NCBI GenBank assembly: GCA_018830745.1
Contig: JAHJRU010000075.1
Span: 1 to 13,857, forward strand
Source: Chloroflexota bacterium
GTDB taxonomy: Bacteria > Chloroflexota > Dehalococcoidia > Dehalococcoidales > JAHJRU01
Length of the DNA stretch: 13,857 nt
Reading direction: 5' to 3'
The translations under genes and the position numbers were made by a program. A model generated the notes under the pieces. It was not told the DNA's origin, made no database searches, and was given only the letters and a program-made list of their open reading frames with translations. Within the stretch, counting starts at the first letter, position 1, and every line of letters starts with the position of its first letter. Positions 1,558 to 13,857 of the stretch are shown here, piece after piece.

Positions 1558-2262
1558 CTACTGGGTTAATTCCCTCTCAATCTCGCTTCTTCTCTCTTCT
1601 AATTCGTCTTTTTCCGCTGTTATGCCGCTGGATTCTTCTACCTTTTTCAATCGGTTCTCCAGTTTCTTCTGCTCTTTTAAAACCCGCTTTAAGGCTTCAG
1701 CAACCGGGTCGGGTAACTCACCGTGCTTAAGGTCTATAACCGGCTTGTGGCGGTCGGATACAATCTTGCCGGGAATGCCCACTACGGTAGTCCCGGGCGG
1801 CACCGCCTTCACCACCACGGAGCCGGAACCTATTCTGGCATCATCACCTATGGTAATGGGACCCAGCGCTATGGCGCCGGCGCCGATAACCACATTATTG
1901 CCCACGGTGGGGTGGCGCTTCTTCTTCTCCAGAGCCGTGCCACCCAGAACCACTCCCTGATAGATGAGAACGTCATCGCCAATCTCCGTGGTCTCGCCGA
2001 TGACAACACCGGCTCCGTGGTCGATAAAAAACCGTCTGCCGATTCGGGCTCCCGGGTGGATTTCTATGCCGGTCAGAAAGCGGTTGAGATGCGACAGTAG
2101 ACGGGCCAGGAGTCTGAGCCGACGCTGCCATAGAAAATGCGCTATCCGGTGAAACCAGAGGGCATGTAATCCGGGATAGCAGGATATAACCTCCAAACGG
2201 CTTCTGGCCGCGGGGTCGCGGGCAAAAACCGTGTTGATGTCTTCTGCCATAGACTTAAACAA
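1558..2262 (-). CDS. cysE: Serine O-acetyltransferase (CysE/EpsC type)
   Basis: The enzyme acetylates L-serine with acetyl-CoA to give O-acetylserine, the carbon acceptor for cysteine synthase. The protein is 234 residues. An N-terminal alpha-helical part (about 1-62) is followed by left-handed beta-helix hexapeptide repeats (about 65-165). The active-site region GIEIHPGA (65-72) and FIDHGAG (79-85, His82) match the short bacterial EpsC-type enzymes; [14 protein letters not shown] sequence and [15 protein letters not shown] close the domain. Residues 183-234 are a charged, probably coiled-coil tail. The start is TTG at 2262: AGGGGGTG lies 6 nt upstream, whereas the next ATG (2250) is too far from it. 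It follows the ubiquitin-like carrier gene by 15 bp and is the last gene of the block. The matching cysK is ten genes upstream, near the head of the same block. Confidence 0.95.
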
Positions 2263-2277
2263 ATGTCACACCCCCTC

Positions 2278-2550
2278 TCATCCGCCACCAATGGTGCGGA
2301 GTATGTAGAGTTCGTCGCCATCCTTAACCGGCTTGGCTAATTCCTCCGGATATGAGCTCTTGCCGTTAACGTAGATATCGACGAAATGTAGTACATTCCC
2401 GTCATTATCAAGTAGTTCCTCTCTAAGGACGGGGAACTGGTCTATCAGTTGGTCGAGGCATTCCCCTACCGTGCTGCCGTTTACCTCCACTACGTCCTGA
2501 TTATTGGTGAAATGCTGCATGCCCGGGCGAACATCTATTTTCACGCTCAT
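2278..2550 (-). CDS. MoaD/ThiS-family ubiquitin-like sulfur carrier protein
   Basis: This is a 90-residue beta-grasp protein ending in IGGG. In MoaD, ThiS and CysO the C-terminal Gly-Gly is adenylated by an E1-like enzyme and converted to a thiocarboxylate that donates sulfur. Visible family features are the V.ECLDQL helix region, VDIYVNGK near 57-64, LAKPVKDGDELYIL and the C-terminal glycines. The gene directly follows its presumed E1-like activator (24-bp gap) and precedes cysE by 15 bp. That context fits a CysO-like role in cysteine synthesis at least as well as a role in molybdopterin or thiamine synthesis, since no other moa or thi gene is present. GGAGGAGG lies 4 nt before the ATG. The family is clear; which pathway it feeds is inferred. 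Confidence 0.88.
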   Translation of the reverse strand: MSVKIDVRPGMQHFTNNQDVVEVNGSTVGECLDQLIDQFPVLREELLDNDGNVLHFVDIYVNGKSSYPEELAKPVKDGDELYILRTIGGG

Positions 2551-2574
2551 TCAACCTCCTCCTCACTAGAACGG

Positions 2575-3315
2575 TTATCCAGTTTCCAGATGGCCGCAAT
2601 ACTGGCAACCAGGGTCTTTTTTAACCGTCAATTCGGTGAATTTCATATTCAATCCATCATAGACCAGCAGACGGTTCGCCAGCAGCTTGCCGATACCGGT
2701 AAGATACTTTATTACTTCTGTCGCCTGGATACATCCAATGACAGCTGGTGTGACGCCGATTACCGGGAATTTCTCCCGGGGGATAGGTCCCCGGTATATA
2801 CACCCCATACAGGCTGTTTTACCGGGTATTATAGTCATCGCACGGCCCTCAAGACCGTAAACCGCTCCGTGAAAAAACGGAATATTATGCTCTATGGCTG
2901 CCTTATTTAATATAAATCTGGTGGGCAGATTATCCATGGCATCCACTATTAAATCGAAGCCAGCCACTAACCGGGAGACATTGGCTTCAGTTATAGACTC
3001 CGCTACGGCTTCTACCTGTACTCCTTCGTTCAGCTTTTGGAGCTTCTCCGCAGCCGAATTGACCTTTTCTCTGCCCACATCCTTGTCCCAGTGAAGGACC
3101 TGGCGGTTGAGGTTGCTAAGTTCCACCCTGTCATGGTCAATCAGGCGTATCGTCCCTATACCGGCGGCAGCCAAGTAAATGGAAACCGGCGAGCCAAGCC
3201 CACCGCCACCGGCAACAACTACCTTGCTCTGCTTAAGCTTTTCCTGCCCTTCCTCTCCAATCCCCGGTATCATTATCTGGCGGTCGTATCTCTGCAGTTC
3301 ATCATCGGTTAACAT
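2575..3315 (-). CDS. MoeB/ThiF/HesA-family E1-like adenylyltransferase
   Basis: The enzyme would use ATP to adenylate the C-terminal glycine of a ubiquitin-like sulfur carrier, here most likely the product of the next gene. In the 246 residues one sees YDRQI (10-14), the nucleotide loop GGGGLGSP (36-43), an acidic end of strand at Asp60, NLNRQ (68-72) with the catalytic-type Arg71, Lys84, and DAMDN (125-129). A zinc site is formed by C169xxC172 and C237xxC240. Length fits MoeB and ThiF; the rhodanese domain seen in MOCS3-type proteins is absent, so sulfur must come from another protein, plausibly the cysteine desulfurase encoded upstream. AGAGGA precedes the ATG at 3315. It starts 22 bp after cutA. 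Exact subfamily (MoeB, ThiF or HesA) is not resolved. Confidence 0.92.
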   Translation of the reverse strand: MLTDDELQRYDRQIMIPGIGEEGQEKLKQSKVVVAGGGGLGSPVSIYLAAAGIGTIRLIDHDRVELSNLNRQVLHWDKDVGREKVNSAAEKLQKLNEGVQVEAVAESITEANVSRLVAGFDLIVDAMDNLPTRFILNKAAIEHNIPFFHGAVYGLEGRAMTIIPGKTACMGCIYRGPIPREKFPVIGVTPAVIGCIQATEVIKYLTGIGKLLANRLLVYDGLNMKFTELTVKKDPGCQYCGHLETG

Positions 3316-3337
3316 GGCTATCCTCTAAGGTCACTTT

Positions 3338-3658
3338 TTAAGTTTCCTCCCCTATCCAGTTCAGGTAATCCGGGTTGCCGCCAACAATGGGCAGAGCAAT
3401 CACCTCGGCAACCTCGTAGCTATGCATTTTCTTCACTATACCGATAATATCGTCCAGCAGTGAGGCTCTGGTTTTGATAATCAGCAGGCTCTCCTCAGCG
3501 CTATCGAGTTCACCCTGCCACCAGAAGCGTGAACTCACCTGGGGCACAATATTGACGCAAGCGGCTTTCTTCTGTTCCAGCAGAGCCGAGGAGATTTTCT
3601 GCGCCTCCTCCGGGCTGCCGGTAGTGACCAACACCACGATGTAACTGGGCTCTGCCAT
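3338..3658 (-). CDS. cutA: CutA1-family divalent cation tolerance protein
   Basis: This is a small trimeric, PII-like fold protein of about 106 residues, linked to copper and other divalent metal tolerance in Escherichia coli; its molecular role is debated. The family pattern is complete: VTTGSPEEAQKIS at the N-terminus, KKAACVNIVP, the SRFWWQGELDSAEESLLIIKT strand pair, and MHSYEVAEVIALPI, the counterpart of the usual HPYEVPE motif, ending in YLNWI. The ATG at 3658 is chosen; a TTG at 3664 lies closer (5 nt) to GGCGGGAG and would add two residues. It sits between nadA and the E1-like gene with gaps of about 25 and 22 bp, so it is probably co-transcribed. Confidence 0.9.
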   Translation of the reverse strand: MAEPSYIVVLVTTGSPEEAQKISSALLEQKKAACVNIVPQVSSRFWWQGELDSAEESLLIIKTRASLLDDIIGIVKKMHSYEVAEVIALPIVGGNPDYLNWIGEET

Positions 3659-3684
3659 ATCCAACCATGCTCCCGCCTATGAGC

Positions 3685-4596
3685 CTATGACACCTGCAGC
3701 ATGCGGTCAACTGCCGCTTTGGCTCTCAGGCGGGTTTCTTCCGGCACTCTGACCTCAGGTGCCATCTCTTCCAGCGCCCACAGCACCTTTTCCAGAGTGA
3801 TTAGCTTCATATTCGGGCAAACCGCTTTGTTGGATGCCGGGATAAACTCTTTATCAGGATTGTCCTTCTTTAGACGATGCAATATGCCTATCTCCGTACC
3901 CACTATCATCTGGTCGAAATCGTTCTCTCTGGCGTAGCGAATCATCCCGCCGGTGCTCAAGGCCTTGTCCGCCAGAGCTATAACATCAGGCCGGCACTCC
4001 GGGTGGACCACCACCCTTGCTCGGGGATACTTCTTCCTGAGCTCGGTGATATGCTCCGGCAGTATCTTCATATGAGTGGGGCAATAGCCCGGCCAGAGAT
4101 GTATTTTTTTATCCGTCTGGGTGGATACATATTGTCCCAGGTAGTGGTCGGGAATAAACAGTATTTCCTTCGATTCCAGGCTCTCTATAACCCTGACCGC
4201 ATTAGCCGAGGTGCAACAGATGTCCGATTCCGCTTTGACATCAGCCGACGAATTGACATAGCAGACCACTTCGGCGTTCGGTAGCTCCCTTTTTTTTTCC
4301 TTTAGCTTTGCAGCGGTTATCATGTCCGCCATGGGGCAGCCGGCATTGGCGTCCGGCAGTAAAACCACTTTATCGGGACAGAGGATGTAGGCTGTCTCCG
4401 CCATGAAATTGACACCGCAGAATACTATTACCCCGGCGTCTGTTTTAGCCGCTTGCTGGCTCAGTTGCAGAGAGTCTCCGACGAAGTCGGCCATATCCTG
4501 GACCTCACCGCGCTGGTAGTTATGGGCCAGAATGATAGCCTTCCTCTGCTCTTTTAAACTCAAAATTGAGTCAGTCAAGTTGCGGTTATCCGTCAT
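3685..4596 (-). CDS. nadA: Quinolinate synthase
   Basis: NadA condenses iminoaspartate with dihydroxyacetone phosphate to quinolinate in de novo NAD synthesis. The protein has 303 residues, typical of the compact NadA class. The three cysteines that bind the 4Fe-4S cluster are visible: Cys87 in NAGCPMAD, Cys172 in GYCPTH and Cys260 in AVCPNMK. Other family signatures are LAHNYQRGEVQDMADFVGDS (23-42), HPECRPDV (198-205) and VGTEIGIL (232-239). The start overlaps the fdhD stop by 11 bp, implying translational coupling. The usual partners nadB and nadC are not in the window. Its presence in a sulfur-handling block fits its need for an Fe-S cluster. Confidence 0.96.
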   Translation of the reverse strand: MTDNRNLTDSILSLKEQRKAIILAHNYQRGEVQDMADFVGDSLQLSQQAAKTDAGVIVFCGVNFMAETAYILCPDKVVLLPDANAGCPMADMITAAKLKEKKRELPNAEVVCYVNSSADVKAESDICCTSANAVRVIESLESKEILFIPDHYLGQYVSTQTDKKIHLWPGYCPTHMKILPEHITELRKKYPRARVVVHPECRPDVIALADKALSTGGMIRYARENDFDQMIVGTEIGILHRLKKDNPDKEFIPASNKAVCPNMKLITLEKVLWALEEMAPEVRVPEETRLRAKAAVDRMLQVS

Positions 4597-5407
4597 TCAG
4601 GAGCACCTTCCCCTTCACCGGGGCTATGTCGGTTATTACCCGCCAGTCATTGGCATAGACATTCATCCTTTTCCCCCGCACAAAACCTACCAGTGTTATG
4701 CCCAGCTCATTAGCCAGCTTCACCCCTAAATCGGTGGGAGCCGATACGGAGATAATTATGGGGATTTTTCTCTTCGCCGCCTTCAACAATATCTCCGAAG
4801 GGATGCGGCCACTGGTGACTATTACGCGGTTATCCGTTGTTATGTCCTTGAGCAGACATTCACCCAGTATTTTATCTATGGCATTGTGTCTGCCAATATC
4901 ATCAGAGAAGACCAGGATGTTTTTGTTATCGCAGAGGGCGGCACTGTGCACGCCGCCGGTGTCCCGAAAAGTCTGCGAATGATGCTGGAACTCGCTTACG
5001 AGGTCAAATATCTCAGTGGCTGATACCTGAGTCTGCGATTCCACCTTACCCAGGTTCTGGACATCAGCTGCCCGGTAGAGAGAGCCGGCACCACAACCTG
5101 AGGTTATGACCCGTTTGAAGAGTAGCTCACCAGCCGGCCCCTTGTCCTCTTTGGTTTCTATCCGGACTACACCCCGGCGATCATCCACCATTATTTTCTG
5201 GATTTCATCTTTGTTATCGATTAATCCCTCTGAGAAAAGGAAGCCGGCAGCTAAATAGTCCAAATTATGAGGAGAGCAAAGCAGCGTTACCAGCTCGTGG
5301 TTATTTAAGATGATGGTAAGAGGTAGTTCCTTGATTACCATCTCTTCCCGGTCATGCTTACCTTCTTCGGTAACGCGCTGTACAATAAATTTTTCCGCCA
5401 TCTCCAT
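4586..5407 (-). CDS. fdhD: FdhD-type sulfur carrier for formate dehydrogenase
   Basis: FdhD passes sulfur from a cysteine desulfurase to the molybdenum cofactor of formate dehydrogenase. The 273-residue protein shows the family blocks in order: LAAGFLFSEGLI (52-63), SGCGAGSLY (103-111), TGGVHSAAL (150-158), DDIGRHNAIDK (169-179), SGRIPSEILLKA (199-210), SAPTDLGVKLA (222-232) and GFVRGKRMNVY (241-251). Where the E. coli protein has a CxxC pair, this one keeps only the first cysteine (Cys105 in CGAG). The start codon follows the MOSC stop directly (TAA-ATG), with GGAGAG upstream, and the end overlaps nadA. With the desulfurase and MOSC genes close by it belongs to a sulfur delivery group. No formate dehydrogenase is in the window. 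Confidence 0.95.
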   Translation of the reverse strand: MEMAEKFIVQRVTEEGKHDREEMVIKELPLTIILNNHELVTLLCSPHNLDYLAAGFLFSEGLIDNKDEIQKIMVDDRRGVVRIETKEDKGPAGELLFKRVITSGCGAGSLYRAADVQNLGKVESQTQVSATEIFDLVSEFQHHSQTFRDTGGVHSAALCDNKNILVFSDDIGRHNAIDKILGECLLKDITTDNRVIVTSGRIPSEILLKAAKRKIPIIISVSAPTDLGVKLANELGITLVGFVRGKRMNVYANDWRVITDIAPVKGKVLLNDG

Positions 5408-5887
5408 TTACTCTCCGCTCCCCGGCACCCTTATGGCATCGCCGGTTTTAACCACTCCCCCCTGAATTACACGGGCAAAAACACCTTCTTCCGGCATTAT
5501 ACATTGCCCCACCTGCTTGTATATGGCGCACTTGGTATGGCATTCCTTGCCAATCTGGGTGACTTCCAGAATGGTATCATCGCCTATTCGCAAGCGTGTG
5601 CCGAGCGGTAAAGACACCAGGTCAATGCCCTCGCTGGTAATGTTCTCGGCGAAGTCACCATGCCCCACGTCCAGGCCAAGATTCTGCATCTTGGCGATGC
5701 TTTCCATTGCCAGCAGACTTACCTGGCGGTGGCTGTTGCTATCTGCGTGGGCATCATCTACCATCCCGAAATCCTCTTTGAGAGTGCCCTCACTCACAAC
5801 CGTTTTCTTAGTGCCCTTTTTCTTACTGCGGCAGACGGCAATTACTTTGCCCACCGCCTCTCTACCAGTTATAGCTGTATCAGACAC
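5408..5887 (-). CDS. MOSC-domain protein
   Basis: MOSC domains occur in molybdenum cofactor sulfurases and related proteins and are thought to carry sulfur or bind the cofactor. This is a free-standing 159-residue version. Signatures are the N-terminal GKVIAVCRS, HRQVSLLA (53-60), the DVGHGDFAENI loop (73-83), LPLGTRLRIGDDTILEVTQ (93-111) and IGKECHTKCAIY (112-123), which carries Cys116 and Cys120, followed by VIQGGVVKTGDAI. The start is GTG at 5887: GGAAGAGGAG is 8 nt upstream and the preceding stop is 5 nt away. A longer frame from 5944 would run back into the upstream gene without need. The stop abuts fdhD. Together with fdhD it suggests sulfuration of a molybdenum or tungsten enzyme encoded elsewhere. 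Confidence 0.9.
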   Translation of the reverse strand: MSDTAITGREAVGKVIAVCRSKKKGTKKTVVSEGTLKEDFGMVDDAHADSNSHRQVSLLAMESIAKMQNLGLDVGHGDFAENITSEGIDLVSLPLGTRLRIGDDTILEVTQIGKECHTKCAIYKQVGQCIMPEEGVFARVIQGGVVKTGDAIRVPGSGE

Positions 5888-5892
5888 TTTTC

Positions 5893-6303
5893 TTACTCCT
5901 CTTCCTTTTCTCCGACCATTTTCATGTACTCCTTGCGCATGCAATGGTCCATAACCACCTTGAGTCCGGCTTCTTTAGCCCGAGCGGCGGCGCCTTCATT
6001 TACGACTCCTTCCTGCATCCATACCGCCTTAGCTCCTATTTTAATGGCGTCCTCCACTATAGGCGATACGTCCTCGGAACGGCGAAAGATATCAACCACA
6101 TCCACTCTTTCAGGAATGGAACGGAGGTCGGGGTAGCTGGTTTCGCCCACTACTTCCTTTTCTGCCGGGTTCACCGGGATTACCTTAAAGCCTTTTCCCT
6201 TTAAATAGTTGCCCACACGGTAGCTTGGTCGGTCTGGCTTAGAGGAGAGGCCAACGATGGCTACCACCCGGCTGGATTTAAGGATTTCCTCCTCTATGCT
6301 CAT
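5893..6303 (-). CDS. CoA-binding (YccU-like) protein
   Basis: This 136-residue protein has a single Rossmann-type CoA_binding_2 domain: VVAIVGLSSKPDRPSYRVGNYL from residue 13, KVIPVNP (40-46), VDVVDIFR (67-74), AVWMQEGVVNEGAAARAKEAG (93-113) and VVMDHCMRKEY (116-126) with Cys121. The family binds coenzyme A in solved structures, but its cellular function is not established. An acidic GEKEEE tail ends it. GGAGGTGA with good spacing precedes the ATG at 6303. It lies 39 bp after the AIR-synthase-like gene and 5 bp before the MOSC gene. Its place here may hint at a thiol-linked role, which is inference only. Confidence 0.88.
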   Translation of the reverse strand: MSIEEEILKSSRVVAIVGLSSKPDRPSYRVGNYLKGKGFKVIPVNPAEKEVVGETSYPDLRSIPERVDVVDIFRRSEDVSPIVEDAIKIGAKAVWMQEGVVNEGAAARAKEAGLKVVMDHCMRKEYMKMVGEKEEE

Positions 6304-6342
6304 TATGTCACCTCCGTATTTGTAACTGACTAAGGTGCATTA

Positions 6343-7398
6343 TTATTGCAGGGCACCGTAGAAGGCGTTCCAGAAGGGGTCAACGATGGGATGCTCCAAT
6401 TTCGTCTCCCTTCCTCCCTCTATCAGCACCATTCCCTTGTCGGGTGAGGTTAATTCCCCGACCACGGAACATTTGATTCCTTTCTTGGTAAGGGCAGTCA
6501 ACACGTCCTGGGCTTTATGCTCGCGACAGGAAATTATTAAAGTCCCCTCACTGATTGAGGCATAAGGGTCGATGTTGAAAGAACGACATATCTCTTCGAT
6601 ACCGTCCTCGATAACTATCTGCTCCTTTTCTACCCTGACTCCCAGACCAGCCGCCTGGGCTATCTCGTAAAGGCCGCCCCATATGCCGCATTCGGTGGCG
6701 TCATGCATCGCCGTGACCCCGTTATCTCTCACCCCAACGCTGACTGCGGTCAGGGCGTCCTCGACTACCGACATCTTATAAAATATCTGCTGCGCCTTCT
6801 GGCTGAAGTCGTGCCCGAATTCTTTTTCGATTCGCTCCGGGAACATGGTGGCGAATATGCCCGTGGCCTCAATGGCTGGTCCCTTGGTGATGATTATCTT
6901 GTCTCCAGCCCGGGCCATTTTGGGAGTAACATATTCATCTTTCTCTCCTACGGCGAGCATGGTAGCTCCGCCTACCATCGGATAATGGCAATTCTCATAG
7001 CGAGCGGTATGCCCGCAGATAACGGCTATTCCCAGCTTCTCGCACTCGCCATGCATGGTTTTCCATACCGTTTCCAGTTGCCCCTTGGTCATCTCCATGG
7101 GCAGATTCAAGTCTATCGAAAGGAACTTCGGCCTCAACCCGGAGGTAACGGCATCAGAAGCGATAATGTGAATAGCAAACCAGGCTGCCTTTTCCCAGCC
7201 ATATTCAGGAACGATAAATACCGGGTCAGCCGTGAGCGCTACTGCCTTGCCCCCGATTTCTATTATGCCTACATCCACTCCATGCTGAGGGCCCACGATG
7301 ATGCTATCGCTTTTAGCTCCCAAGTGGGGAAATATCAACTCGTTAAAAATCTGGGGTGAAATTTTGCCGATTTCGGGCATTTCGTTCATGTCGTTCAC
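6343..7398 (-). CDS. AIR-synthase (PurM/HypE/SelD superfamily) related protein
   Basis: The protein belongs to the PurM-like ATP-using superfamily that includes PurM, ThiL, SelD and HypE. It has 351 residues. The N-terminal half shows GVDVGIIEIGGKAVALTADPV (40-60), WFAIHIIASDAVTSGLRP (73-90) and AVICGHTAR (125-133). The C-terminal half shows GDKIIITKGPAIEATG (165-180), MHDATECGIWGGLYEIA (231-247) and ISEGTLIIS (282-290). It is not a working HypE: the C-terminal cysteine that accepts the carbamoyl group is absent and the protein ends in YGALQ. No SelD-type Cys or Sec loop is seen near the N-terminus. The GTG at 7398 is chosen because AGGAG lies 7 nt upstream; ATG at 7389 is the alternative. 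It begins 3 nt after the cysteine desulfurase gene, so the two are surely co-transcribed. Substrate unknown. Confidence 0.87.
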   Translation of the reverse strand: MNDMNEMPEIGKISPQIFNELIFPHLGAKSDSIIVGPQHGVDVGIIEIGGKAVALTADPVFIVPEYGWEKAAWFAIHIIASDAVTSGLRPKFLSIDLNLPMEMTKGQLETVWKTMHGECEKLGIAVICGHTARYENCHYPMVGGATMLAVGEKDEYVTPKMARAGDKIIITKGPAIEATGIFATMFPERIEKEFGHDFSQKAQQIFYKMSVVEDALTAVSVGVRDNGVTAMHDATECGIWGGLYEIAQAAGLGVRVEKEQIVIEDGIEEICRSFNIDPYASISEGTLIISCREHKAQDVLTALTKKGIKCSVVGELTSPDKGMVLIEGGRETKLEHPIVDPFWNAFYGALQ

Positions 7399-7401
7399 GC
7401 T

Positions 7402-8574
7402 TTATCTCCTGTCCGTATTTTTAAAAAGCGGTGACATTGCCCTGAGCTTGGAAATAATTTTTGGCGTGACTTCCAGAACCCGGTCAATGTCCTCCTGGCT
7501 GGTCCATTTGCCCAGACTGAACCTCATCGAGCAGTGCGCCTGTTCGTGGGGTAACCCCAAAGCCAGCAGTACGTGAGACGGCTCAATGCTTAACGAGCTG
7601 CAGGCTGATCCAGTAGAAGTGCTGATGCCTTCCAGGTCAAGGTTTAGCAGAATCGACTCCCCCTCCACAAACTTAAAGCTGATATTAACATTGTTGGGTA
7701 ACCTCTGGGAGGGATGTCCATTCAGGTACGCATGCTCGATTCGCTCCAGGAGACCACTGATCAGGCGGTCACGGAGAACAATCAGGCGCTCCGCTTCCCC
7801 TGCCATCTCCTGCTGAGCCAGCTCCGCTGCCTTGCCAAAGCCCACAATTCCCGGAATATTGTGGGTGCCGGCTCGCCAGCCATCCTCTTGCTCACCGCCG
7901 TGCATAAAGGGAACCAGTTTGGTTCCTTTTCTGATGTACAATATGCCGACTCCGTTAGGACCGTAGAGTTTGTGTGCCGATGAAGAGAGTAAATCCACTC
8001 CTAACTCATTTACGTCCACCGGTATGCGCCCCACCGCCTGTACGGCATCGGTATGAAAATATACCCCCGCCTCCCGGGCAATCTTGCCTATCCCGGTTAT
8101 TGGCTCAATGGTGCCTACTTCATTATTGGCCTGCATAACCGAGATGAGAATGGTTTTACGGGTTATGGCTTTCCTGACATCGTCAGGGTCAACCAGCCCG
8201 TACTCATCCACCGGGAGATAGGTCACCTCAAACCCCTGGTGTTCCATGAATTCGGCGCTCTCAATTACGGCATGGTGTTCGATGGCCGTGGTGATGATGT
8301 GATTGCCTCGTGACTTGTTGGCGTAAGCTACACCCTTAATGGCACTGTTGTCCGCCTCGGTACCACCGCTGGTAAAAACTATCTCCTCACTGGAAGCCCC
8401 GATGAGAGCCGCCACCTTGCTCCTTGCCTCTTCCAGCGCCTGTTTCGCCTCCTGACCATAAGAGTGAATGCTGGAGGCATTACCGAAGGACTCGGTGAAG
8501 TATGGCAGCATAGCCGTTACCACTTCGGGGTGGGTCGGAGTCGTGGCGGCGTAGTCAAGATAGATTCTTTTCAT
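7402..8574 (-). CDS. nifS: Cysteine desulfurase (NifS/IscS class)
   Basis: This PLP enzyme converts cysteine to alanine and holds the released sulfur as a persulfide for Fe-S, FdhD, carrier or tRNA pathways. It has 390 residues from the ATG at 8574. The N-terminus MKRIYLDYAATTP is canonical. Further marks are TSGGTEADNSAI, EHHAV, HTDAVQAVG (174-182) and the PLP lysine in SSAHKLYGPNG (Lys202). The persulfide cysteine lies in TGSACSSLSIEPSHVLLALG (Cys325). AGAGGGGTG is well placed for this ATG, while a GTG at 8580 would sit on top of it. The start region follows the NIL gene stop within a few bases. No iscU or suf scaffold gene is nearby, so the sulfur may go mainly to FdhD, the carrier protein and NadA maturation. 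Confidence 0.95.
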   Translation of the reverse strand: MKRIYLDYAATTPTHPEVVTAMLPYFTESFGNASSIHSYGQEAKQALEEARSKVAALIGASSEEIVFTSGGTEADNSAIKGVAYANKSRGNHIITTAIEHHAVIESAEFMEHQGFEVTYLPVDEYGLVDPDDVRKAITRKTILISVMQANNEVGTIEPITGIGKIAREAGVYFHTDAVQAVGRIPVDVNELGVDLLSSSAHKLYGPNGVGILYIRKGTKLVPFMHGGEQEDGWRAGTHNIPGIVGFGKAAELAQQEMAGEAERLIVLRDRLISGLLERIEHAYLNGHPSQRLPNNVNISFKFVEGESILLNLDLEGISTSTGSACSSLSIEPSHVLLALGLPHEQAHCSMRFSLGKWTSQEDIDRVLEVTPKIISKLRAMSPLFKNTDRR

Positions 8575-8576
8575 TC

Positions 8577-8819
8577 TCACCCCTCTATGATATCACCAAT
8601 CACCGGATCGACTCTCACCCCCCGGCTGATTACCCAGGCAATGCCCTGCTCCATATCCTGTTCCTCTCCCTCCAGTTCCAGTATCACCCATCCTATGTTC
8701 TCCGATAAGTCGGCTTGCTTGATATTGGTTACCACTCTAAACTGCTGTCCAAGATTATGAATGACGGGTTCCTTGATGGCTTCTTCTGTGAAGGTAAACA
8801 CCACCTGTCTCTTAGACAT
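8577..8819 (-). CDS. Stand-alone NIL-domain protein
   Basis: An 80-residue, single-domain protein. The NIL domain is an ACT-like regulatory fold best known from the C-terminus of MetN methionine transporters. The fit is seen in VVFTFTEEAIKEPVIHNLGQQF (6-27), VVTNIKQADL (29-38), IGWVILELEGEE (42-53) and the closing IAWVISRGVRVDPV (60-73). No cysteine or ferredoxin domain is present, unlike the NIL-ferredoxin proteins implicated in homocysteine formation in anaerobes and methanogens. GGAGGAG precedes the ATG. Its stop lies 2 nt before the desulfurase ATG, implying tight coupling. It may sense or bind a sulfur amino acid; that is inference. Confidence 0.82.
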   Translation of the reverse strand: MSKRQVVFTFTEEAIKEPVIHNLGQQFRVVTNIKQADLSENIGWVILELEGEEQDMEQGIAWVISRGVRVDPVIGDIIEG

Positions 8820-8854
8820 TTACTCCTCCCCCGGCTTTCCTGAACCCTGGCCTT

Positions 8855-8894
8855 TGGAGGTATTATAGCTTAAACTGGCTTATCAAGCACCTCC
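8855..8894 (-). promoter_or_regulatory. Possible internal promoter or stem in the cysK to NIL gap
   Basis: The 90-bp gap (8820-8909) is the largest inside the block. On the minus strand it contains a perfect TATAAT at 8861-8866, but only a poor -35 match at normal spacing. GGAGGT (8856-8861) and ACCTCC (8889-8894) form an inverted repeat, with GCTT and AAGC pairing further inside. Either a secondary promoter for the downstream genes or a weak stem-loop is possible. Confidence 0.3.
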
Positions 8895-8909
8895 CCGGTG
8901 AAGCATCAC

Positions 8910-9902
8910 TCAGGATTCTTGAAAAAGCCAGGTGGAAAGGTAGCGTTCGCCGGTATCCGGCAAAACTACCACTATTAGTTTACCTTCACTTGCTGGTCTT
9001 TTGGCTACTTCCACTGCTGCCCAGGCAGCGGCACCGGAGGATATGCCAGCCAGTATGCCCTCTTCTCTGGCTAGCCTCCTGGCCATTATCCCGGCGTTTT
9101 CATTGGATACCTGGATAATTTCGTCAATCAGGTCGGTTTGCAGTACGTCGGGGACGAAACCGGCACCGATACCCTGAATCTTATGGGGCCCCGGTTTTCC
9201 GCCGGAAAGCACCGGAGAGTCAACCGGCTCGACAGCGATAGCCTTGAATTCAGGGTTCCTCTTCCTTATCACCTGGGTGACGCCGGTAATGGTCCCTCCG
9301 GTCCCCACCCCGGATATCAAAATATCAGCTTGGCCGCCGGTATCCCGCCAGATTTCCTCAGCCGTGGTCAACCGGTGCACCTCAGGATTAGCCTCGTTCT
9401 TAAACTGCTGGGGCATAAAGTAGCCTGGATTCTCGGCAACCAGTTGTTCAGCTTTTCGTATTGCTCCCGGCATACCCTCTGCTCCCGGAGTCAACACCAG
9501 TTCGGCGCCGAAGATGGCTAATAGCTGCCTTCGTTCTAATGACATGGTGTCCGGCATGGTCAGGATGAGCTTGTATCCCCGGGCAGCGCAGACAAAAGCC
9601 AGAGCTATGCCGGTATTGCCGCTGGTGGGTTCGATGATTACCGTATCCTGGTTAATGAGCCCCTTTTCCTCCGCATCAATAATCATTGACATGCCAATCC
9701 GGTCCTTAACGCTGCCAAGGGGATTAAAGGATTCGAGCTTCGCTACTACCTCAGCCTTCGCTCCACCGGTAATCCGGTTTAATCTCACCAGGGGTGTATT
9801 CCCGACCAGCTCGGTAGAATCCCTGGCGATGCCTCTGGTTAGCTTCGGTATCTCTATGGTCTTGTAAAGAAGTTTTTCCACCTTTGGAGTTGCCTTAACC
9901 AT
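8910..9902 (-). CDS. cysK: Cysteine synthase (O-acetylserine sulfhydrylase) with N-terminal extension
   Basis: This PLP enzyme makes cysteine from O-acetylserine and sulfide or a protein thiocarboxylate. The 330-residue protein has [12 protein letters not shown] (31-42), the PLP lysine in [10 protein letters not shown] (Lys66), PTSGNTG (92-98), the phosphate cup GVGTGGT (198-204), [12 protein letters not shown] (240-251) and ISSGAA (287-292), ending in [11 protein letters not shown]. All fit CysK or CysM. About 25 extra residues precede the point where CysK normally begins; AGGAGGG just before the ATG at 9902 supports this longer start. It follows the Rrf2 regulator by 36 bp, an arrangement common for cysteine and Fe-S regulons. 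CysE is encoded at the far end of the same block. Whether sulfide or the carrier thiocarboxylate is the donor cannot be read from sequence. Confidence 0.94.
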
Positions 9903-9938
9903 TTTACCCTCCTACCATTATATTTTGAGACAATAGAG

Positions 9939-10379
9939 TTATATCTGGTATGTTATCTCCTCATGGGATTTATTTTTTTGCCGTTCCACCAGGTCTTGCA
10001 GGGTCATTGACTCCAGCACGGTATCAATTGCCTCTTTTATTTCACCCCACACATCCTGGGTGGCGCAGGCTCCCGAACGACTGCATGTTTCCGGATTATC
10101 CACACACTCGGCGGGAGCGAGCGATCCCTCAAGCAGGCCGATAATGTAACCGAGGTTTATCTCTTCCGGGGGCTTGGCCAGCCAGACACCACCTCTAACT
10201 CCACGGATGCTCCCGACTATTCCCTCGGCTACCATGGGAGCTATCAGATGTTGTAGATACGATAGCGAAATCCGCTGCCTTCGAGCGACATCCTTGAGGA
10301 GAACCGGCCCACTTTTATAATGGAGAGCCAGGTCCAGGAGCGCTCTGGTTCCGTATCGTGCTCTGGTGGAAAGTTTCAT
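9939..10379 (-). CDS. Rrf2-family regulator with Fe-S-type cysteine triad (IscR-like)
   Basis: A 146-residue dimeric transcription factor. Residues 1-70 form the winged helix: MKLSTRARYGTRALLDLAL, the recognition part ISLSYLQHLI (37-46) and the wing GSIRGVRGGVWLA. Three cysteines, Cys92, Cys99 and Cys105, are spaced x6 and x5, nearly the 92/98/104 set that binds 2Fe-2S in E. coli IscR. The fourth IscR ligand, His107, is not at the same place (Thr107). CymR, the cysteine regulator of Bacillus, lacks these cysteines, so this protein looks cluster-binding. The ribosome binding site is weak (GGGGT). It heads the sulfur block and has an IscR-like palindrome in its own promoter, which suggests autoregulation and control of the whole unit. 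NsrR-like nitric oxide sensing is an alternative. Confidence 0.92.
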   Translation of the reverse strand: MKLSTRARYGTRALLDLALHYKSGPVLLKDVARRQRISLSYLQHLIAPMVAEGIVGSIRGVRGGVWLAKPPEEINLGYIIGLLEGSLAPAECVDNPETCSRSGACATQDVWGEIKEAIDTVLESMTLQDLVERQKNKSHEEITYQI

Positions 10380-10399: not shown

Positions 10400-10424
10400 T
10401 TAATTGACTAATAAAGTCATGTAT
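10400..10424 (-). promoter_or_regulatory. IscR-type palindromic operator in the Rrf2 promoter
   Basis: The core is a perfect inverted repeat, TGACT-N5-AGTCA, at 10405-10419. Read on the minus strand against the E. coli IscR type 1 consensus (ATASYYGACTRWWWYAGTCRRSTAT, from memory), 21 of 25 positions agree. It lies just downstream of, and slightly overlaps, a TATAAT hexamer, and 20 bp upstream of the regulator ATG. The position fits repression of the regulator and the genes behind it. Confidence 0.65.
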
Positions 10425-10456: not shown

Positions 10457-10497
10457 CCCTCGGAGATTTGGGATATTACTCAATCTTAGTTGGCGAA

Positions 10498-10542
10498 TTA
10501 AAAGCAATCTCTAACTTTATCAGCTATCCCCAGAGATTGCTT
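10498..10542 (-). terminator. Possible terminator downstream of the phosphodiesterase gene
   Basis: On the minus strand AAGCAATCTCT (10532-10542) pairs perfectly with AGAGATTGCTT (10502-10512) over 11 bp, with a 19-nt loop, followed by TTAATT. The U-tract is short and the loop long, so it is a moderate candidate. If active it would keep phosphodiesterase transcription from reading into the Rrf2 block. It is built from part of the interspersed repeat. Confidence 0.4.
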
Positions 10543-10578
10543 CGTCGTCTCGATTACACCGGGACTTCTCGCAATGAC
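10502..10578. repeat. Decayed interspersed (REP-like) repeat
   Basis: The stretch contains AGAGATTGCTTCGTCG (10532-10547) and CTCGCAATGAC (10568-10578), the two ends of a palindromic intergenic repeat I know from many bacterial genomes in the form GTCATTGCGAG...GACGAAGCAATCTC. Here the middle is diverged and a third inverted piece, AAGCAATCTCT, sits at 10502-10512. It lies between the regulator promoter and the phosphodiesterase gene. Copy number in this genome cannot be seen. Confidence 0.55.
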
Positions 10579-10649
10579 GTTTTTGAACAACCACGAATTA
10601 GCAGAACCAGATTTGGTGGTTCCGGGACTCAGGAGATGCTGCGCTGATT

Positions 10650-11323: not shown

Positions 11324-11821
11324 ATGACCAAGCTAGATGTTATCAAGGAGAATCATGTTTTCCAGGGTTTAAATGGAGAGCAATGGCAGAAGATTGCCGC
11401 TATCTCCGAGGAGAAGACATATCCGGCTGGTCAAGTCATTTTTAGAGAGGGTGAACAGGCAAAAGCACTGTACATCCTGGAAGAAGGGAAGGTCCTGTTG
11501 GAAATGAGGATTGCCCCCTACCCCGAGCGCACCCCGGTGCCAACGGCTACCATCCAGGTGGTCACCCAGGGAGAACTGTTTGGCTGGTCAGCACTGGTAG
11601 CCCCTCATGTTCTCACTTCCTCCGGCATCACGGCCAGTAAGTGTCAGGTCATATTAATAAACGGCGAACAGCTATTGGAAATGATGGGCTCAGACCCGGT
11701 TATGGGCTATGAGGTGATGACACGTTTGGCCGAGACTATAGCCGGCAGGCTTAAACACTCGAGAGAGATGCTGATGAGCGAGCGCGGGCTTTCCCTCATC
11801 AGCCAGGCTTATTCTTACTAA
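11324..11821 (+). CDS. Cyclic-nucleotide-binding-fold protein without DNA-binding domain
   Basis: The 165-residue protein matches the N-terminal beta-roll of the Crp/Fnr family: FQGLNGEQWQKIAAISEE (13-30), YPAGQVIFREGEQAKALYILEEGKV (33-57), VVTQGELFGWSALV (79-92) and a C-terminal helix LAETIAGRLKHSREML (135-150) like the Crp dimer helix. It stops there; the helix-turn-helix found at about 170-210 in Crp is missing. The phosphate-binding cassette keeps GELFG but has no arginine where Crp has Arg82 (the segment reads VLTSSG), so cyclic nucleotide binding is doubtful. GAGGAGG precedes the ATG. Cytosolic. It may bind another small ligand or act through a partner protein. A terminator-like stem follows it. 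Confidence 0.85.
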   Translation: MTKLDVIKENHVFQGLNGEQWQKIAAISEEKTYPAGQVIFREGEQAKALYILEEGKVLLEMRIAPYPERTPVPTATIQVVTQGELFGWSALVAPHVLTSSGITASKCQVILINGEQLLEMMGSDPVMGYEVMTRLAETIAGRLKHSREMLMSERGLSLISQAYSY

Positions 11822-11827
11822 TAGTTG

Positions 11828-11862
11828 TTCCCCCTTCTCCCAAAGGTGAAAGGGAATTTTTT
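11828..11862 (+). terminator. Rho-independent-like terminator after the cNMP-fold gene
   Basis: TTCCCCCTTCTCC and GGTGAAAGGGAA form an imperfect stem (one bulge, two mismatches) closed by a short loop and followed by six T (11857-11862). It begins 7 nt after the stop codon. Because the next gene starts only 18 nt later with no obvious promoter in between, termination may be partial. Confidence 0.5.
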
Positions 11863-11879
11863 GTGGGTAGTTTTAACGG

Positions 11880-12503
11880 ATGATTACGCCTTTCCTCGTT
11901 CTATTGATGGCCATATTATTGTTCGGCCTGGGCGGCATGGCTACCATCTGGCTTTTTCTGCGCTGGCGGAGAGTGGCCAGAAGCAAAACGCCGCCTGAAG
12001 GAGCGGTTGCGGAGACCTCTTCTTTCCACTGGAGTTATGTCATCCTGCCCACGGCGGTGCTGGTTCTGTCCATCATCCTGGTGGCTTACTTCTATCGCCT
12101 GCTGCCGGGTGAGGTGGCTTACCATTTCAAAACAGACGGCTCGCCCGATAGATGGTTCGGGCGCGGGGTTATTACCGCCTGGATGCTGGTTCCGCAGTTT
12201 TTCTTAACGCTGCTTGCCGTCACGGTCACCATGGGGATAGCCAGAATGGGTGTTCTTTCCCAGAGTCCAAATGGTGGTAGCATAAAACCAGGGAATGTGC
12301 TGGCGCTTATGGGCAACATGATTGGACTGCCCCAGCTTGTTATCGGCTTTGCAATGCTGGATATTTTCAGCTACAATTCTTACGGAATACACCTCCTGCC
12401 TCTCTGGGTATTCGCCCTGATTGTTATGGGGGCCGGAGGTGTCATTCTGGGTATAATCATGGTTTCAGTCGCCCGGCGAGCCAGGAGAGCTTTATCCAGC
12501 TAA
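11880..12503 (+). CDS. DUF1648-domain membrane protein
   Basis: A 207-residue inner membrane protein with about five predicted membrane segments: 4-27, 53-74, 98-120, 140-163 and 172-197. Between the second and third lies LPGEVAYHFKTDGSPDRWFGR (75-95), the hallmark of DUF1648, found in SdpI-like and related membrane proteins. Positive residues after the first segment (RWRRVARSK) and at the C-terminus (RRARR) suggest those parts are cytoplasmic. The molecular function is unknown; the SdpI immunity role in Bacillus is one example in the wider family and should not be assumed here. The ribosome binding site is poor. It is 19 nt upstream of glyS and probably co-transcribed with it. Confidence 0.8.
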   Translation: MITPFLVLLMAILLFGLGGMATIWLFLRWRRVARSKTPPEGAVAETSSFHWSYVILPTAVLVLSIILVAYFYRLLPGEVAYHFKTDGSPDRWFGRGVITAWMLVPQFFLTLLAVTVTMGIARMGVLSQSPNGGSIKPGNVLALMGNMIGLPQLVIGFAMLDIFSYNSYGIHLLPLWVFALIVMGAGGVILGIIMVSVARRARRALSS

Positions 12504-12522
12504 GGTGTAAAGGAGATAGATA

Positions 12523-13857
12523 GTGACGGAACCGGCAGCCAGAAAAGTTGATATGGAAAAAATTGTCTCCCTCTGCCGGCGGCGTGGCTTTATTTTCCCC
12601 AGCAGTGAAATCTACGGCGGTCTCTCCAGTTGCTGGGACTACGGTCCACTGGGTGTGGAGTTGAAGCGGAATATCAAGGACGCCTGGTGGCGAAGCGTGG
12701 TGCAGGAACGCGACGATATGGTGGGTATGGATACGAGCATACTGATGCACCCTGACGTCTGGACTGCCAGTGGCCATATAGAGGGATTCACTGACCCTCT
12801 GGTGGATTGCAAAAGCTGTCATTTGAGATGGCGTTCCGATGAGCTGGAGGCTGACAAGTGCCCCTCCTGTGGTGGTGAATTGACTGAACCCCGCATGTTT
12901 CATCTGATGTTCAAGACCTTCATAGGGCCGGTTGAGGAAGAGGCCAGCGTGGTCTATCTTCGCCCGGAGACAGCCCAGGGCATGTTTATCAACTTTCAGA
13001 ACGTGGTTAATACCACCCGCAAGCGGTTGCCTTTCGGTATAGCTCAAATTGGTAAAGCCTTTCGCAACGAGATAACTACCGGTAACTTCATCTTCCGCAG
13101 TCGGGAATTTGAACAGATGGAAATAGAGTTCTTCGTCAAGCCGGGGGCTGACCAGGAATGGTTTGACTACTGGCTGGAGGCGCGCCTTAACTGGTATGTT
13201 AATATCGGCATCAGAAGAGAGAACTTAAAGTTGCGCCAGCACGGTAAAGACGAACTGGCTCATTATGCCCGCGCCTGCTATGACATCAACTATCTCTTCC
13301 CGATGGGCTGGGCGGAGCTGGAAGGCGTTGCCAACCGCGGTGACTTCGACCTGGCGCAGCACGCCAAATTCAGCGGCAAGAACCTGGACTATTTCGATGA
13401 TGACGCCAAAGAGCACTACCTGCCATACATTATCGAGCCCTCAGCCGGCGTTGACCGTTGCGCTCTGGCAGTGCTCTGTGATGCCTATGATGAAGAGCCC
13501 GACAAGGACGAAATCAGGGTAGTGCTTCGTTTGCATCCCAGCATAGCCCCTATAAAGGTTGCCGTTTTGCCTCTGAGCCGTAAAGAAAACGTAGCCACAC
13601 TGGCCAAACAGGTATATGCTGACTTACGACCATGCTGGATGGTGAGCTATGACGATAGCCAGAGCATTGGCCGGCGCTACCGGCGGCAGGATGAGATAGG
13701 CACCCCCTTCTGCGTAACCGTTGATTTCCAGTCACTGGAGGACAATCAGGTCACCATTCGTGAGCGCGATAGCATGAAGCAGATACGAGTTCCCATCAGT
13801 GAGCTGAGGACACACCTTACCGCCAATCTCAGCGGGGAGCTTTTTAATACTCAGGAA
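12523..13857 (+). CDS. glyS: Glycyl-tRNA synthetase, alpha2 type (C-terminal end outside window)
   Basis: The class II enzyme charges tRNA-Gly with glycine. The frame runs 445 codons to the window edge without a stop; the family is about 450-470 residues, so only the tail is missing. The start is GTG at 12523 with AAGGAG upstream. Visible are the N-terminal [15 protein letters not shown] (19-33) and YGPLG (40-44), and a zinc-ribbon insertion with Cys96, Cys99, Cys113 and Cys116. Motif 2 is [20 protein letters not shown] (177-196), and motif 3 is [14 protein letters not shown] (305-318), followed by an anticodon-binding domain from about 335 ([15 protein letters not shown]). It is the single-chain form, not the alpha2-beta2 form of E. 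coli. Confidence 0.96.

Follow-up and report, generated by a model that had tools for sequence, protein, structure and literature searches.

A conserved but shuffled neighbourhood of sulfur-transfer genes, with an AIR synthase-related member, in a Dehalococcoidia draft genome

Introduction

Do thirteen closely spaced genes for the synthesis of cysteine and the release and use of its sulfur form one system, and what would a protein with the HypE/SelD/ThiL fold do among them? The question is raised by a 13,857-nucleotide stretch of DNA (here called the window) from a Chloroflexota bacterium of the class Dehalococcoidia, which is the complete contig 49 of a draft genome of 1.53 Mb (273 contigs, completeness 72%). 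Starting from an Rrf2-family regulator, the block encodes CysK, a NIL-domain protein, the cysteine desulfurase NifS, an AIR synthase-related (AIR-like) protein, a CoA-binding protein, a MOSC-domain protein, FdhD, NadA, CutA, an E1-like enzyme, a ThiS/MoaD-like carrier and CysE (Table 1). A preliminary description, made from the letters of the window, took the block for a single sulfur relay unit under an iron–sulfur (Fe-S), IscR-like regulator. The most puzzling of these proteins, the AIR-like protein, has sulfur-transfer genes for neighbours among relatives and also in some distant groups. The block is read here, with a probability of just under 0.6, as an operon for sulfur acquisition and hand-over in an uncultured strict anaerobe, with its own Rrf2-family regulator.

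Results

All thirteen reading frames lie on the minus strand between positions 1558 and 10379 (open-frame coordinates), and in transcription order are separated by 36, 90, -4, 3, 39, -52, 0, -11, 20, 22, 24 and 15 bases. The -52 overlap, at the CoA-binding/MOSC junction, depends on an early TTG called as the MOSC start and is probably smaller. The coordinates bear out the preliminary description of a single-stranded array with gaps of 0–40 base pairs or overlaps and one gap of 90, and the families of the thirteen genes were verified by Pfam and NCBIfam scans. Matches over the Pfam cut-offs comprise Rrf2, PALP, NIL, Aminotran_5, AIRS/AIRS_C, CoA_binding_2, MOSC, FdhD-NarQ, NadA, CutA1, ThiF and ThiS, with Hexapep for CysE; CysK, NifS, FdhD, NadA and CysE also exceed curated NCBIfam cut-offs. 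The block is set apart at both ends: upstream, 270 bases separate the regulator from the end of a same-strand gene of YfcE type, and downstream a truncated gene lies about 540 bases past cysE. A terminator scan gave 17 sites against 14.0 (standard deviation 3.3) in shuffles, which is no excess, with no intergenic site within the block, and Rfam gave no match within the window or ahead of the regulator. The thirteen genes may share one transcript.

Matches to the AIR-like protein at E ≤ 1e-40 occur in 66 of 151 genomes of the same order; fragments and members of a paralogous clade, at an identity near 43%, are counted among them. From named genomes the best 80 of 432 stretches were kept, all at least 66% identical and from records whose titles name Chloroflexota or one of about twelve other groups; among these, the closest proteins are by record title those of Dehalococcoidia and other Chloroflexota. 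Neighbourhoods were examined in 139 loci, of which 80 + 40 are centred on the AIR-like gene and 19 on ThiF. Removal of 12 loci fetched twice left 108 AIR-centred loci (repeats within one set were kept), 99 of them at least 56% identical and counted as orthologue loci. Many of the contigs end within 10 kb. The control set comprised twenty 20-kb stretches taken from seven genomes of the same order.

At least one other block family is present in 66 of the 99 orthologue loci and at least four in 26, whereas 19 of the 20 control stretches lack all 13 families and the remaining one has just one NifS. The neighbourhood assembled in the preliminary description is thus conserved beyond this genome. NifS is its commonest member (40 loci), followed by Rrf2 (28), NIL (27), NadA (23), CysE (22), CysK (18), CutA (17), FdhD (12), MOSC (8) and the CoA-binding protein (8). 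Neighbours within 8 kb are overwhelmingly on the strand of the AIR-like gene (202 versus 5 opposite). An AIR frame was called in 75 named loci; immediately upstream of it, no more than 200 bases away, stands IscU in nine, NifS in nine and Rrf2 in eight. Loci titled Chloroflexota carry at least one gene of this neighbourhood in 38 of 50 cases (NifS in 28), and those titled other groups in 16 of 25. The fullest other locus, L091, has nine of the 13 families in nearly the order of the window (CysK-CysE-MetY-ThrC-NifS-IscU/AIR-MOSC-FdhD-NadA-CutA). Three complete genomes of the same order, G008, G044 and G083, carry the core as Rrf2-AIR-NadA-CutA-CysE or a similar array.

Further sulfur genes join in relatives. 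The 80 named loci add IscU (25), ThrC-like (14), MnmA (10), MetY (10), ThiI-like PP-loop (8), TusA (7), HcyBio (5) and DsrE2 (4); IscU, MnmA, TusA and DsrE2 were each found in one of the 20 control stretches. The hallmark of an ISC-type operon, an IscU scaffold encoded alongside, is absent from the window. In the same draft genome IscU is found on contig C129, where positions 5935-8214 (locus L203, G000:C129) encode a second NifS, 49% identical to that of the window, together with IscU, DsrE2 and a short frame resembling a zinc ribbon.

Residues K12, D42, D58, D82 and D233 of the AIR-like protein are invariant in 35 aligned rows and align with the lysine and aspartates of SelD. Its database relatives are labelled HypE, hydrogenase maturation factor or thiamine-phosphate kinase, and HypE ranks first in fold comparison, which counts toward keeping HypE in mind. 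The score against the curated HypE model TIGR02124 is 91.6 bits, below the cut-off of 251.6. In HypE a C-terminal cysteine accepts the carbamoyl group. No C-terminal or near-terminal cysteine occurs in any of 20 AIR-like open frames, nor any cysteine in the last 20 residues of the 35 rows, most of which stop where the match stops; HypE was rejected on this missing cysteine.

An identity as SelD was rejected on two grounds. The lysine that follows the catalytic Cys/Sec of SelD aligns with K12 in all 35 rows and the Cys/Sec itself has no counterpart, in an alignment where only three of the eight SelD rows are true SelD frames. Moreover, three genomes that are 99-100% complete in one contig each (G008, G044 and G083) encode the AIR-like protein at 67% identity and have no SelD over the cut-off and no SelA match. 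In genomes of the same order, an in-frame TGA is present in nearly all of the full-length SelD matches listed above the cut-off, as though SelD itself were a selenoprotein.

A separate ThiL over the cut-off is encoded by 126 of the 151 same-order genomes, including those three; the single ThiL match listed for the draft genome of the window is below cut-off level (6.7e-29). In seven loci (L038, L040, L056, L068, L070, L111 and L127) the AIR-like gene stands immediately before ThiE, thiamine monophosphate synthase by Pfam. ThiL was rejected as an identity because the same-order genomes with this adjacency (G115, G074, G056, G063 and G122) all have a ThiL of their own over the cut-off.

Three cysteines, C137, C237 and C271, are present in 35 of 35 rows, but C137 and C237 are missing from four rows that belong to the paralogous clade (about 43% identity). 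One of these four, L042, still adjoins NifS. A sulfur relay through the three cysteines was accordingly left as a guess. In L091 (9593-11068) IscU and the AIR-like protein form a single 491-residue frame with NifU_N, AIRS and AIRS_C. The NifU_N domain is absent from all 120 proteins listed out of 6017, the nearest of them (P0001, 92%) being 355 residues long. The fusion may reflect one indel, because the IscU and AIR genes often overlap, and as a single case it is not used as evidence of contact.

The regulator has cysteines C92, C99 and C105 with IscR-like spacing in 34 of 34 aligned rows, some of which are the same DNA fetched twice. In place of the fourth ligand of IscR, a histidine at +3 past the last cysteine, the window has Gln and its relatives mostly Arg. 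Scores fall below the curated cut-offs for both IscR (TIGR02010, 113.9 against 207.55 bits) and CymR (NF047409, 116.5 against 195 bits), and the nearest solved chains are 4cic_A, then CymR, then IscR. The Fe-S, IscR-like regulator of the preliminary description is therefore plausible on its cysteines and unproven on its scores; the protein may sense Fe-S.

A perfect palindrome, TGACTTTATTAGTCA, lies 26-40 bases ahead of the regulator start codon and resembles the IscR type 1 box. The exact pattern TGACT-N5-AGTCA occurs once in the whole draft genome and the reversed control pattern not at all. Sites matching at least 8 of the 10 letters lie at -29 to -42 in eight of the 11 closest relatives, those with a regulator identity of 56% or more, a cut picked after the list was seen. 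Overall, a site of this type occurs in 11 of 27 upstream stretches versus 114 of 2000 random 200-base stretches. TGACTTTATTAGTCA is probably the operator of the regulator itself. Farther upstream, at 10490-10590, is a short element with partly complementary ends, possibly a dispersed repeat, whose folding is not unusual (z -1.24). Its 14-base core, GACGAAGCAATCTC, recurs in L036, L089 and L092 (4 of 236 loci, counting the window's own).

Matches to the E1 occur in 49 of the 151 same-order genomes. Its partners in the 19 ThiF-centred loci, which come from these genomes, are ThiS (14), FdhD (10), NIL (9), CysE (6), CutA (5), NadA (3), MOSC (3), NifS (3), CysK (3), HcyBio (3), Rrf2 (2) and the AIR-like gene (1). 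By the ThiF- and AIR-centred counts, the carrier and its E1 draw on the same gene pool as the AIR-like gene but seldom occur with it; in the window they are joined. In five of these loci (L210, L214, L215, L218 and L221) selA-selB adjoins the E1 gene on the opposite strand.

Table 1. Features of the block, in transcription order
Feature	Position	Strand	Basis
Palindrome TGACTTTATTAGTCA, likely operator of the block	10405..10419		Sole exact TGACT-N5-AGTCA in draft genome
Rrf2-family regulator, IscR-type three-cysteine motif C92, C99, C105	9939..10379	-	Pfam Rrf2 129.1 bits
cysK, cysteine synthase A	8910..9902	-	TIGR01139 471.6 bits, cut-off 350.95
NIL-domain protein, stand-alone	8577..8819	-	Pfam NIL 50.9 bits
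nifS, cysteine desulfurase	7402..8580	-	TIGR03402 591 bits, cut-off 530.75
AIR synthase-related protein (HypE/SelD/ThiL fold)	6343..7398	-	Pfam AIRS/AIRS_C
CoA-binding protein, small	5893..6303	-	Pfam CoA_binding_2 141.6 bits
MOSC-domain protein, real start probably later	5408..5944	-	Pfam MOSC 40.1 bits; matches MOSC half of MoaC/MOSC model NF011069
fdhD, formate dehydrogenase accessory sulfurtransferase	4586..5407	-	TIGR00129 223 bits, cut-off 140.9
nadA, quinolinate synthase	3685..4596	-	NF006878 438.1 bits, cut-off 294
cutA	3338..3664	-	Pfam CutA1 119.6 bits
E1-like adenylyltransferase, ThiF/MoeB family	2575..3315	-	Pfam ThiF 259 bits
ThiS/MoaD/SAMP1-like sulfur carrier, C-terminal GGG	2278..2550	-	Pfam ThiS 33.1 bits; solved relatives 3dwg_C, 1v8c_A, SAMP1
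cysE, serine O-acetyltransferase	1558..2262	-	TIGR01172 247.6 bits, cut-off 210.65

Beyond the block, a lipoprotein gene begins on the minus strand within 1-1017 and is truncated where the contig ends; by eye its product has the look of a TAXI-type solute-binding protein, and it has a long proline-alanine linker encoded by tandem repeats (807-942). The plus strand at 11324-12503 and 12520-13857 encodes a cyclic-nucleotide-binding protein in which no DNA-binding domain was called, followed in this list by a DUF1648 protein and, by eye, a glycyl-tRNA synthetase-like frame leaving the contig.

Discussion

The reading as a sulfur operon is carried by the genes and their spacing, the palindrome unique in the draft genome, and a neighbourhood that is conserved but shuffled. 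Going by the protein families, CysE and CysK would turn serine and sulfide into cysteine, from which NifS would remove sulfur as a persulfide. That sulfur would be passed to Fe-S assembly, with NadA as a client, to molybdenum or tungsten enzymes through FdhD and the MOSC protein, and to the ThiS/MoaD-type carrier, which the E1 would charge. The AIR-like protein may act as an ATP-dependent helper of the NifS step, and in relatives of the IscU step.

Several observations weigh against this reading. No other locus among the 139 holds more than nine of the 13 families; ThiF and ThiS each occur in one of the 99 orthologue loci; and 33 of these loci, many on short contigs, have none of the other 12 families. 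In loci titled other phyla, which have no control of their own, the link is thinner (NifS 5 of 25, Rrf2 9 of 25). IscU is encoded away from the window, beside the second NifS. MoaE, Prok-JAB and HcyBio (DUF39) were not found in the 72% complete draft genome, where ThiG is represented by a match of 39 positions, so that no client of the carrier was identified, and a sigma-70-type promoter scan called none on the minus strand before the regulator. Of the single sulfur relay unit first proposed, the association of acquisition, release and client genes in a conserved, shuffled neighbourhood holds; a fixed unit of thirteen genes finds no support, given the nine-family maximum elsewhere and a carrier pair that is almost never found with the AIR-like gene.

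The same variation in order and content would suit shared regulation only, in which a mosaic pool of sulfur-related housekeeping genes stays together through a common response to cysteine or Fe-S, without sulfur being handed over physically and without any particular role for the genes as a set. The nine-family best match, the presence of CutA and a CoA-binding protein with no evident sulfur chemistry, and the occurrence of the cysteine regulator CymR among the nearest named regulator families all fit this explanation. It is nevertheless somewhat unlikely, as the adjacency of NifS, IscU and the AIR-like gene recurs in the 75 loci with called frames. A molybdenum/tungsten-enzyme maturation operon, with FdhD, MOSC, MoaD/SAMP1-like carrier and MoeB-like E1 as its core and cysteine synthesis and NifS merely feeding it, would explain why these four co-occur in the block and why FdhD lies beside ThiF in 10 of the 19 ThiF-centred loci, but is very improbable, as MoaE was not found in the 72% complete draft genome and NifS, Rrf2, NIL, NadA and CysE are each commoner near the AIR-like gene than FdhD or MOSC. 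Least credible is a CysO-CysM-like route, in which E1 and NifS load the carrier and CysK uses its thiocarboxylate with O-acetylserine: CysE and CysK do share the block with a carrier whose best solved relative, 3dwg_C, is CysO in complex with CysM, but the CysO route needs a JAB (Mec+) protease, for which no Prok-JAB candidate was found in the 72% complete draft genome, the window's enzyme scores 471.6 bits as CysK, well above CysM (298), and CysK occurs in just three of the 19 ThiF-centred loci.

Known systems resemble the proposed sulfur operon in part. Anaerobes have minimal IscR-NifS-IscU-MnmA operons; the window shares with them an Rrf2 regulator and a cysteine desulfurase, and IscU and MnmA join in relatives, but the window itself lacks these two and has a predicted AIR-like ATPase and cysteine synthesis genes. 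The AIR-like protein shares the fold and ATP-site aspartates of HypE and SelD, without the C-terminal cysteine of the one or the catalytic Cys/Sec of the other. In PMC5764234, homocysteine synthesis is assigned to DUF39 (HcyBio), NIL/ferredoxin and COG2122 proteins. The window likewise has a NIL protein, and HcyBio and NIL share neighbourhoods in relatives, but this NIL protein stands alone without a ferredoxin, and HcyBio was found neither in the window nor in the draft genome. Rows 4c-4e of Table 1 in PMC1779556 list neighbourhoods of ThiS/MoaD, E1 and JAB with cysteine synthase or sulfur assimilation genes. The window likewise brings a carrier and an E1 together with a cysteine synthase; compared with those rows, it lacks JAB, a rhodanese fusion and sulfate assimilation genes and adds NifS, the AIR-like protein, FdhD and NadA. 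PMC5424206 reports on SepRS-SepCysS and on sulfur assimilation of the methanogen type in Dehalococcoidia; it concerns the same lineage (its strains CG2_30_46_9 and RBG_13_51_36 are the sources of L086 and L095), and its available part deals with tRNA-dependent cysteine and homocysteine genes rather than this block. Literature searches, with result lists covered in part, gave no description of this block or of an AIR-like protein with NifS or IscU. The block would appear to be an operon for acquiring and delivering sulfur that includes an unassigned PurM-fold protein, with pieces of it already in print and the combination not found described.

It is tempting to speculate further that the AIR-like protein represents a new kind of enzyme that activates sulfur with ATP, much as SelD does with selenide, taking the sulfur from NifS or IscU and acting possibly through C137, C237 and C271, and that cysteine desulfurases have in it a partner so far unrecognised and widespread in uncultured anaerobes; we regard this as a long shot. 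If the sulfur operon reading is right, a family labelled HypE, hydrogenase maturation factor or thiamine-phosphate kinase would be part of sulfur transfer, and sulfur supply and its control in strict anaerobes rich in Fe-S enzymes, such as the Dehalococcoidia, would become testable through one gene cluster.

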